Shown in pieces: positions 54,878-56,249 of a stretch of DNA of 64,000 nt (positions are counted from its first letter, which is position 1; every line of letters begins with the position of its first letter). The notes under the pieces were generated by a model. It was not told the DNA's origin and searched no databases. It worked only from the letters and a program-made list of their open reading frames with translations. The stretch comes from Bacteroidota bacterium (GTDB lineage: Bacteria; Bacteroidota; Bacteroidia; Cytophagales; Cyclobacteriaceae). The translations under genes and the position numbers were made by a program. Where the stretch lies: contig VGMW01000002.1 of the NCBI GenBank assembly GCA_016866235.1, positions 372,001 to 436,000 of the forward strand, read 5' to 3'.

Positions 54878-54997
54878 TAGGGATAATCTCGCGTCTGTCT
54901 ACGGTGGGTGAAGTGAAAGGGTAAGAGAATTTACACGTCTGTTGATTTAGATAGGTAAATGCACCACTATAGTACTCTAAAGATATCCTACATGGTT

Positions 54998-55048
54998 ACG
55001 ATCTCTTGAAGGAGAATAAAGAATGTAAAACGTAAATATTTTATCCAA
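54998..55048 (-). pseudogene. Truncated third copy of the GIY-YIG gene (5' end only)
   Basis: The TTG at 55048 starts the same MDKIFTFYILYSPSRD as the two full copies, but identity stops after 17 codons at about 54998. This marks the left edge of the 373-bp tandem array. Confidence 0.85.
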
Positions 55049-55063
55049 AACCTTTTAAAAACG

Positions 55064-55088
55064 AAAAGCGGACCATCGTCCGCTTTTT
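55064..55088. terminator. Terminator in 373-bp unit, copy 1
   Basis: AAAAGCGGAC (55064-55073), CATC, GTCCGCTTTT (55078-55087). T-rich in both directions; on the minus strand it follows the tRNA 3' end by about ten bases. Confidence 0.8.
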
Positions 55089-55096
55089 ATTTCCGT

Positions 55097-55156
55097 GGGA
55101 GCTGAGGGGTTCGAACCCCCGACCCTCCCGACTTGAAGTCGGGATGCTCTGAACCA
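55097..55156 (-). pseudogene. tRNA 3' remnant fused to GIY-YIG copy 1
   Basis: Minus strand: the D-loop GG onward, an anticodon arm CCCGA-CTTCAAG-TCGGG, variable loop, intact T-arm GGGGGTTCGAACCCCTC and acceptor strand AGCTCCC. The 5' acceptor and first D-stem strand are missing, replaced by the end of the nuclease gene, whose TAG stop (55158-55160) abuts it. If read as a tRNA the anticodon would be UCA, but it cannot fold fully. Confidence 0.85.
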
Positions 55157-55157
55157 A

Positions 55158-55421
55158 CTATTTCATTTTGGACTTTATTAAAGCCTCAATTTTCTTTCTA
55201 CTCTTCCAGCTTTTAACGCTACGCTCTCGAGCATAAGCAGATATCTTATCAGGATACTGCTCCAAAAAAGATATTTGCCAGTCTTCTTGGCTGCCCGTGA
55301 ATCCTTTATGCTTAGAGTTATGTCGGCGAAGTCGCTCCTGAATTTGGTCAGAAGTGTATCCGAGGTAGTAACGATCTCTTGAAGGAGAATAAAGAATGTA
55401 AAACGTAAATATTTTATCCAA
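55158..55421 (-). CDS. GIY-YIG nuclease, copy 1
   Basis: 87 residues, a stand-alone GIY-YIG domain like the small YhbQ/UvrC-N relatives. Strand motifs are FYILYSPSRD (GIY) and YYLGYTSD (YIG), then RLRRHNSKHKGF with the conserved Arg, and ARERSVKSWKSRKKIEAL with the catalytic-type Glu. Start TTG at 55421 (no ATG upstream in frame). Its protein is identical to copy 2. The stop codon lies at the D-loop of a tRNA remnant. It may be a homing-type endonuclease that spread into the tRNA locus, or a passenger duplicated with it. Confidence 0.88.
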   Translation of the reverse strand: MDKIFTFYILYSPSRDRYYLGYTSDQIQERLRRHNSKHKGFTGSQEDWQISFLEQYPDKISAYARERSVKSWKSRKKIEALIKSKMK

Positions 55422-55436
55422 ACCCTTTTAAAAACG

Positions 55437-55461
55437 AAAAGCGGACCATCGTCCGCTTTTT
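55437..55461. terminator. Terminator in 373-bp unit, copy 2
   Basis: Exact repeat, 373 bases on, of the hairpin AAAAGCGGAC...GTCCGCTTTT. It separates the upstream tRNA remnant from GIY-YIG copy 1. Confidence 0.8.
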
Positions 55462-55469
55462 ATTTCCGT

Positions 55470-55529
55470 GGGAGCTGAGGGGTTCGAACCCCCGACCCTC
55501 CCGACTTAAAGTCGGGATGCTCTGAACCA
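55470..55529 (-). pseudogene. tRNA 3' remnant fused to GIY-YIG copy 2
   Basis: Same structure as the remnant at 55097, but the anticodon loop reads CTTTAAG, so a formal UUA anticodon (would read UAA). The T-arm and 3' acceptor are intact while the 5' acceptor strand is missing. Confidence 0.85.
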
Positions 55530-55530
55530 A

Positions 55531-55794
55531 CTATTTCATTTTGGACTTTATTAAAGCCTCAATTTTCTTTCTACTCTTCCAGCTTTTAACGCTACGCTCT
55601 CGAGCATAAGCCGATATCTTATCAGGATACTGCTCCAAAAAAGATATTTGCCAGTCTTCTTGGCTGCCCGTGAATCCTTTATGCTTAGAGTTATGTCGGC
55701 GAAGTCGCTCCTGAATTTGGTCAGAAGTGTATCCGAGGTAGTAACGATCTCTTGAAGGAGAATAAAGAATGTAAAACGTAAATATTTTATCCAA
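55531..55794 (-). CDS. GIY-YIG nuclease, copy 2
   Basis: 87 residues, identical in protein to copy 1 and differing by one silent base (Ser codon TCG for TCT). TTG start at 55794, 16 bases or so upstream of which is the hairpin at 55810-55834 that follows tRNA-Val. Two intact, identical ORFs next to each other argue either for very recent duplication or for selection on the protein. Same domain features as copy 1: GIY, YIG, Arg and Glu motifs all present, so probably catalytically competent. Confidence 0.88.
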   Translation of the reverse strand: MDKIFTFYILYSPSRDRYYLGYTSDQIQERLRRHNSKHKGFTGSQEDWQISFLEQYPDKISAYARERSVKSWKSRKKIEALIKSKMK

Positions 55795-55809
55795 ACCCTT
55801 TTAAAAACG

Positions 55810-55834
55810 AAAAGAGGACCATCGTCCGCTTTTT
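55810..55834. terminator. Terminator after tRNA-Val (copy 3, one mismatch)
   Basis: AAAAGAGGAC...GTCCGCTTTT: the same hairpin as in the other units with one base changed, so the stem has one mismatch. On the minus strand it follows the tRNA-Val 3' end by eight bases. Confidence 0.65.
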
Positions 55835-55842
55835 ATTTCCGT

Positions 55843-55916
55843 GGGAGCTGAGGGGTTCGAACCCCCGACCCTCTGCTTGTAAGGCAGATGCTCTGAACCA
55901 GCTGAGCTAAGCTCCC
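55843..55916 (-). tRNA. tRNA-Val (anticodon UAC)
   Basis: Complete 74-base cloverleaf on the minus strand: acceptor GGGAGCT/AGCTCCC, D-arm GCTC...GAGC, anticodon arm TCTGC-CTTACAA-GCAGA with anticodon TAC (55881-55879), five-base variable loop GGGTC, T-arm GGGGG-TTCGAAC-CCCTC. The 3' CCA is not encoded (ACGG follows). It is the only member of the cluster with every stem intact. Confidence 0.93.
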
Positions 55917-55996
55917 TTTTTAATCACCTAACTCGAACCTTTCCGACCCTCCCGATTTTAAGTCGGGATGCTCTGAACCAGCTGAGCTCTTCTCCC
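55917..55996 (-). pseudogene. tRNA-like unit a
   Basis: Acceptor strand altered to GGGAGAA; anticodon loop CTTAAAA in stem CCCGA/TCGGG (formal anticodon UAA). Directly upstream of tRNA-Val in the direction of transcription. Confidence 0.7.
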
Positions 55997-56076
55997 TTTT
56001 TAATCACCTAACTCGAACCTTTCCGACCCTCCCGACTTTAAGTCGGGATGCTCTGAACCAGCTGAGCTAAGCTCCC
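55997..56076 (-). pseudogene. tRNA-like unit b
   Basis: GGGAGCT acceptor strand, intact D-arm, anticodon loop CTTAAAG (formal UAA). T-arm decayed. Confidence 0.7.
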
Positions 56077-56156
56077 TTTTTAATCACCTAACTCGAACCT
56101 TTCCGACCCTCCCGACTCGAAGTCGGGATGCTCTGAACCGGCTGAGCTAAGCTACC
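56077..56156 (-). pseudogene. tRNA-like unit c
   Basis: Acceptor strand GGTAGCT, D-loop AGCCGGTTCA, anticodon loop CTTCGAG (formal UCG). The most diverged of the four. Confidence 0.7.
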
Positions 56157-56236
56157 TTTTTAATCACCTAACTCGAACTTTTCCGACCCTCCCGACTTTA
56201 AGTCGGGATGCTCTGAACCAGCTGAGCTAAGCTCCC
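56157..56236 (-). pseudogene. tRNA-like unit d
   Basis: First unit after the promoter. GGGAGCT, intact D-arm, anticodon loop CTTAAAG (formal UAA), then GGAAAAGTTCGAG, one base different from the others. Confidence 0.7.
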
Positions 56237-56249
56237 TTTAAAAGGATTG

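Follow-up and report, generated by a model that had tools for sequence, protein, structure and literature searches.

The window analysed here, a 64,000-nucleotide stretch of a Bacteroidota genome of the family Cyclobacteriaceae (contig VGMW01000002.1, positions 372,001 to 436,000), contains between positions 54998 and 55916 a tandemly repeated unit made of parts of a valine transfer RNA gene (tRNA-Val) and a small gene for a GIY-YIG nuclease. Read on the minus strand from position 56237 downward, four 80-bp 5' copies of tRNA-Val precede an intact tRNA-Val(TAC), a hairpin spacer and the GIY-YIG gene, which are followed by a partial tRNA-Val, a spacer, a second gene copy, a second partial tRNA-Val, a further spacer and a truncated third gene copy. 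The features, with open reading frame abbreviated as ORF and the source of each in brackets, are:

55917..56237, minus strand: four tandem 80-bp 5' tRNA-Val copies without ORF, located upstream of the intact tRNA and with the anticodon arm palindromised (repeat search, sequence)
55841..55916, minus strand: intact tRNA-Val with anticodon TAC, presumably the target gene as restored (ARAGORN)
55795..55840, minus strand: spacer with terminator-like hairpin, from tRNA-Val to the first ORF (by eye)
55531..55794, minus strand: GIY-YIG ORF copy 1, 87 amino acids, first start codon TTG, stop codon TAG (ORF list; PF01541, E 4.7e-14)
55468..55529, minus strand: partial tRNA-Val copy 1 (tRNA positions 17-30 and 44-76), in which a palindrome replaces the anticodon arm (blastn of the intact tRNA; hairpin scan)
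55499..55517, minus strand: palindrome TCCCGACTTTAAGTCGGGA at the anticodon-arm position of copy 1 (pattern search, hairpin scan)
55422..55467, minus strand: second spacer with terminator-like hairpin (373-bp repeat)
55158..55421, minus strand: GIY-YIG ORF copy 2, protein identical to copy 1 (ORF list)
55095..55156, minus strand: partial tRNA-Val copy 2 (blastn of the intact tRNA)
55126..55144, minus strand: palindrome TCCCGACTTCAAGTCGGGA of copy 2 (pattern search)
55049..55094, minus strand: third spacer (self-comparison)
54983..55048, minus strand: truncated third GIY-YIG copy, first 22 residues, at the edge of the array (tblastn; converted from locus coordinates)

An earlier note on this DNA had reported two 373-bp direct repeats with three differences, and a self-comparison at offset 373 reproduces them at 54998-55370 and 55371-55743, differing at 55050, 55135 and 55239, with the match continuing across 55744-55873 with one mismatch. 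Both 87-residue ORFs have identical translations, so that the difference at 55239 is synonymous. The stop codon of the nuclease gene does lie at the tRNA D-loop, as was claimed, since the tRNA match starts from tRNA position 17, one base past the TAG. The truncated third gene copy, matching over its first 22 residues, and the intact tRNA-Val(TAC) beside the last unit were likewise recovered. In all six partial tRNA-Val copies of the window, a pattern search finds the anticodon arm replaced by a TCCCGA...TCGGGA palindrome; the palindromes of the four 80-bp copies start at 55950, 56030, 56110 and 56190. The list of ORFs of 60 amino acids or more has only the two GIY-YIG ORFs and no integrase gene within 54998-55794, and an island of the integrase type was rejected, the GIY-YIG ORFs being alone in the unit.

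The 87-residue protein is a plain GIY-YIG domain, as the earlier note had proposed, and matches Pfam PF01541 with an E-value of 4.7e-14. Y8, Y19, G21, R30, H34 and E66 are invariant among eight lineage representatives, and we take these to match the active-site residues of I-TevI. The protein has an intact endonuclease domain, which is one of the traits of homing endonucleases. Profile comparison gives the UPF0213 structure 1zg2 at E 9.9e-16 and SLX1 at E 1.9e-7. For the predicted structure (mean predicted local distance difference test score, pLDDT, of 87.4), the top Foldseek match is again 1zg2 (E 2.1e-3), ranks 2 to 7 are Slx1 and the I-TevI domain is ninth, with no fold match at E ≤ 0.001. 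By sequence profile and modelled fold, the nearest solved relatives are UPF0213 and SLX1, ahead of I-TevI. The UPF0213 and SLX1 proteins (PDB 1zg2, 1ywl and 7cq2) share the sequence and fold of the catalytic domain. As points of difference, SLX1 works with SLX4 according to the PDB entry titles, and a PubMed Central search on UPF0213 proteins found no link to tRNA, its one paper being unrelated. No family was found in NCBIfam or PHROGs at E ≤ 0.01, and a tblastn search of 50,697 records of phages and 72,556 of plasmids gave no match at E ≤ 1e-3, so that a phage or plasmid cargo is not supported.

The protein was searched in 58 genomes, that of the window and 57 others, of which 40 have matches at E ≤ 0.001, and every listed match was fetched, giving 104 distinct loci (loci and genomes are numbered here with L and G). 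ARAGORN predicts a tRNA within 450 bp at 79 of the 104 loci and within 100 bp at 71, and at none of the 104 is the nearest tRNA on the opposite strand. The remaining 25 loci are divided into 11 at contig edges and 14 internal ones. As a control, 30 ParE-toxin loci from the same genus, taken out of a longer match list from 36 genomes, have a tRNA in 0 of 30 (92 kb). A second set of 38 loci from a scan of genome contigs (Algoriphagus, Belliella, Marivirga, Niastella and others), which overlaps partly with the first (L115 repeats L009), has a tRNA within 450 bp at 29 loci, 22 of them labelled tRNA-Val(TAC) and one lying on the opposite strand (L128); eight of the other nine loci are at contig edges. 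In a sample of the phylum, 72 of 118 genomes, the window's included, are matched at E ≤ 1e-8, with up to 21 matches per genome. The 30 best-scoring loci of this sample are mostly one per genome and include the window. A same-strand tRNA lies within 450 bp at 26 of them, and the stretches around the other four, two of which are at contig edges, contain no tRNA; in no case is the nearest tRNA on the opposite strand. By the ARAGORN labels, the unit is found at tRNAs of 15 amino acids.

ARAGORN calls some partial copies Met, Arg, Cys or undetermined tRNAs (L009, L115, L114, L125 and L123). Among loci counted as having no tRNA, L068 has one cut off at the contig start according to Rfam, and pieces of tRNA are seen by eye in L064, L075, L134 and L135; the counts are nevertheless kept as ARAGORN gave them. 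Rfam, run on 39 loci of which most lack a nearby tRNA, returned tRNAs together with matches below the gathering score. Separately, the locus L236 (G110:C34:5600-10400) has eight tandem GIY-YIG ORFs at a spacing of about 365 bp, with tRNA-Met-like partial copies seen by eye.

Whether homologues lie beside tRNA genes and have the same D-loop junction was a check proposed in the earlier note. The first part holds, most loci being adjacent to a tRNA on the same strand; the second holds for the tRNA-Val loci of the genus, where the 3' end of the gene is joined to the D-arm, but the family is not confined to tRNA-Val or to the D-loop. Homologues scattered without a link to tRNA genes, named there as a sign against the idea, are not what the loci examined present. 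Tandem ORFs occur at 17 of the 104 loci, the window included, one of them in a single-contig genome (G023, L056), and as they recur in this way in other genomes an assembly artefact, the other sign named against the idea, is by this indirect evidence unlikely. We rejected chance or misassembly, the same structure being present in many separate genomes.

The gene lies on the strand of the tRNA. In the commoner layout it follows the tRNA and a terminator-like hairpin, and the order is intact tRNA, gene and a copy of the 3' part of the tRNA. In a mirror layout (found, for example, at Gly, Arg and Ser tRNAs) it directly precedes the tRNA, and the order is 5' copy, gene and intact tRNA. Across the ORF, another and usually partial copy of the same tRNA is present in 87 of 102 tRNA-linked loci, and in a few loci this second copy is possibly a full tRNA.

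Occupied and empty sites can be compared among relatives. The window's tRNA-Val is the sole match in its genome at E ≤ 1e-15, and 33 of the 36 genomes of the genus have one match each, with none in the other three. By eye, in 30 tRNA-Val loci among the matches listed, the unit is present at about 11 sites and in decayed form at another (L218), and none was noticed at the remaining loci; likewise, a Gly site has the unit in L018 and is empty in L032. Presence and absence at a conserved site among relatives is a trait of homing elements which the unit shares. At the tRNA-Val of G033, the terminator past the displaced tRNA copy resembles, by eye and at this one site, the native terminator of the empty sites of G003, G004 and G034, and the terminator between the intact tRNA and the gene resembles those of other elements. 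The unit therefore seems to have brought a tRNA end, a terminator and the gene, and to have shifted the original end of the host to its far side. Judged by eye at this single site, the carried end would restore the gene and the native end would be the displaced one.

The protein lineages follow the tRNAs. A tree of 153 proteins, built on few columns and with 77 of 150 inner branches open, groups largely by tRNA isotype: the 121 labelled rows, which have 15 isotypes, require 31 changes, and shuffled isotype labels give a mean of 81.8 changes and a minimum of 76 in 200 shuffles. L009, L114, L125, L123 and L119 were labelled Val by hand and L010 and L128 were left unlabelled; L002, L003, L005 and L115 were omitted as repeats, and 17 of the remaining 170 loci because they had fewer than 60 residues or no match, which leaves the 153 rows. 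In a smaller tree, the window protein pairs with that of Algoriphagus litoralis (L108) with a support of 96/89, and a single clade for the window's own genus is rejected by the approximately unbiased (AU) test (p 0.014), a test applied once an initial tree had pointed to this grouping. The ratio of nonsynonymous to synonymous substitutions (dN/dS) is about 0.08-0.14 in four close pairs, of which three are comparisons within one set of three Gly loci, and by this measure the pairs tested are under purifying selection.

These data bear on two explanations in which the nuclease does not spread the unit. One is passive tandem duplication, where the gene arose or landed behind a tRNA once and the arrays and partial copies came from normal unequal exchange at short stretches of tRNA homology, the nuclease having no role. 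The tandem units share identical tRNA arms that permit unequal crossing-over, and an array of eight ORFs exists, but the many isotypes, the two mirror layouts, the same-strand placement, the isotype-linked clades and the purifying selection point to repeated targeted insertions, and we regard this explanation as highly unlikely. The other, which we consider more improbable still, is a gene serving the host, whose nuclease would act on RNA or in DNA repair at tRNA genes, with the tRNA linkage serving only for co-expression. It would agree with the purifying selection in the four pairs, and the ORF often starts just past the terminator-like hairpin (by eye), so that expression by read-through is possible. 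The presence at the same tRNA is patchy, however, some gene copies are truncated or interrupted by stop codons (L003 and L006), several copies occur per genome and the gene tree is at odds with the genus, so that selfish DNA fits better.

The second tRNA copy very often contains a palindrome. A perfect stem of at least 6 bp is found in 69 of the 87 second copies and one of at least 7 bp in 51; base shuffles of the same stretches predict 4.75 stems of at least 6 bp, and of the intact tRNAs themselves 27 of 87 reach 6 bp. This count omits L010, L119, L123 and L125, and also L128, whose tRNA is on the other strand. The palindrome is at the anticodon-arm position in the tRNA-Val copies and, by eye, in the D- or T-loop elsewhere (L016 and L004). 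The stems of the tRNA-Val copies differ on both sides (TCCCGAC/GTCGGGA, TCCCGCC/GGCGGGA, TCCCGAT/ATCGGGA, TTCCGAT/ATCGGAA and CTCCGAC/GTCGGAG), which suggests selection for pairing. That the palindrome is unique to the units is only partly right, as TCCCGAYNNNNRTCGGGA is found in 28 of the 36 genomes of the genus with up to 16 copies each (0-16 over all 36). The idea of a stop codon regularly placed in the hairpin loop did not hold, as it lies in the loop in 13 of 53 cases, before it in 37 and after it in 3. The pattern TCCCGAYNNNNRTCGGGA, often TCCCGATAGCTATCGGGA in the rows listed, is of low copy, and a reversed control pattern occurs in just 2 of the 36 genomes.

We propose that this is probably a minimal selfish unit of the homing type, which lives at tRNA genes and brings a substitute tRNA end with it. 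An uninterrupted gene for the cognate tRNA would be cut by the nuclease, probably close to the anticodon arm, and the unit would be copied in when the break is repaired from a chromosome bearing the element, while the carried tRNA part would keep the insertion in an essential gene harmless. Tandem amplification as in the window could then result from breaks or from tRNA copies recombining unequally. The step of which we are least confident concerns the palindrome in the leftover copy, which might block cutting or tRNA reading of that copy or might be the recognition site of the nuclease.

If the palindrome were indeed the real site, an SLX1-like nuclease directed by palindromes could be at work, which would recognise cruciform or hairpin DNA instead of a tRNA sequence. 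Breaks at the palindrome in the partial copy would make tRNA copies recombine and would promote spread to further palindromes, of which tRNA genes form one class and REP-like repeats (repetitive extragenic palindromes) another. The nearest solved structures, UPF0213 and SLX1 by both sequence and fold, are in line with this, as are the recurrence of palindromes in second tRNA copies and the changes on both sides of their stems. In G005, moreover, 8 of 9 copies of CTTCGACARGCTCAG in the genome of about 3.3 Mb flank the gene of a family member without tRNA (L099; G005:C23:109286-109986). This pattern was, however, picked from the L099 locus itself, and G000, the window's own genome, has 8 copies of it away from its listed GIY-YIG loci. 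A general hairpin count gives 12 hairpins in 6 of 14 non-tRNA loci (1.3 in shuffles) versus 10 in 6 of 24 ParE loci, the control being 24 of the 30 ParE loci with six shorter ones omitted. The non-tRNA loci are not clearly separated from the controls, and the link to REP-like repeats is strong in one genome, G005. Lineages that track the tRNA isotype are also unexpected from pure recognition of structure, and we consider a palindrome-directed nuclease unlikely. By eye, other non-tRNA members, such as L044, L048, L078, L089 and L090, also lie among REP-like repeats.

Several points weigh against the proposed homing-type unit. Intact tRNA sequence remains at the occupied site, so that the usual logic of homing, in which the insertion destroys the target, would not apply unless recognition, as it may, reaches into the flanks. 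The specificity is left unexplained, the protein being a single 87-residue domain whose nearest relatives, UPF0213 and SLX1 (named structure-specific), precede the homing endonuclease I-TevI, and cleavage and mobility are themselves deduced from sequence. By our test, 15 of the 102 tRNA-linked loci have no second copy. One clade of the tree contains 15 proteins of which 14 have no tRNA within 450 bp, ARAGORN finds no tRNA in the stretch read for the eight-ORF array of G110, and the AU test was prompted by an earlier tree.

Among known systems, integrase-carrying islands insert in tRNA genes, and the tRNA part they carry keeps the tRNA functional. The insertion in a tRNA gene and the carried tRNA part are shared with the unit of the window; unlike these islands, the 373-bp unit is too small for an integrase, and the nuclease is its only listed ORF of at least 60 amino acids.

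One of the two closest systems found in print is SegB of the phages T4 and T6 (PMC13096335). SegB of T6 cuts inside tRNA genes and is required for the tandem amplification of a 718-bp unit of tRNA-Tyr and segB, where microhomology between the 5' end of the tRNA and the 3' end of segB may aid the recombination. Both systems have a free-standing GIY-YIG gene beside tRNA genes of many isotypes, a tandem unit of tRNA and nuclease gene, and microhomology between the tRNA and the 3' end of the nuclease gene at the junction; cutting inside tRNA genes, shown for SegB, would be a further likeness. In contrast to phage SegB, the family of the window is chromosomal and Bacteroidota-wide, consists of a single domain of 80-90 residues nearest to UPF0213 and SLX1, and has a second partial tRNA copy with a palindrome. 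A relation to the phage family was not found, as neither the PHROG families (E ≤ 0.01) nor tblastn against the phage records (E ≤ 1e-3) gave a match, SegB itself being compared by description.

The second parallel is provided by the fungal mitochondrial mobile ORFs (mORFs), which are described to carry a substitute gene end with the native end left downstream (PMC3630166). As in the unit of the window, an essential gene has received an endonuclease ORF and, with it, a substitute 3' end, and the native end is displaced beyond the ORF. The examples are atp6 of Allomyces and atp6, atp9, cox2 and nad3 of Glomus, and the atp9 case is a GIY-YIG endonuclease (PMC3630166). The mORFs described there are in mitochondrial protein genes, whereas the family of the window is in bacterial chromosomal tRNA genes and has two mirror layouts. 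By analogy, the element of the window looks like a combination of the SegB and mORF logics.

No description of these units was found in searches of the PubMed Central (PMC) literature or in the accessible part of a superfamily survey from 2006 (PMC1564403), a search that does not cover most subscription journals and bioRxiv. The logic is known from fungal mitochondria and partly from T6 SegB, with no report for bacterial chromosomes found in the portion of the PMC literature that was available. If the proposal is correct, a selfish gene would live at essential bacterial tRNA genes without harm by bringing a tRNA end of its own. It would also explain a large group of small Bacteroidota GIY-YIG genes, with matches in the 72 of 118 sampled genomes and the tRNA linkage checked at 30 loci, and would supply nucleases with apparently isotype-specific tRNA targets. 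It raises the question of why the leftover tRNA copy so often bears a palindrome.

More tentatively, and with a confidence somewhat short of even, we suggest that the family could represent phylum-wide autonomous selfish elements of about 300-400 bp, whose sole gene encodes a single-domain SLX1-like GIY-YIG nuclease and of which each lineage would be specialised on one tRNA gene. The carried tRNA part would keep the essential tRNA alive, the palindromic pseudo-tRNA would act as a decoy or as protection from self-cutting, and the elements would give rise to 80-bp derivatives without an ORF, while a sister clade may do likewise with REP-like palindromes.

The four 80-bp copies in the window may be such non-autonomous derivatives. 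Copies of the 5' part without an ORF, upstream of the intact tRNA, are found at 18 of 76 loci in which the tRNA comes first. The window's own genome has a second element, L004 (G000:C1:279210-279751), which is tandem, has the mirror layout and lies before a tRNA-Arg(CCT).
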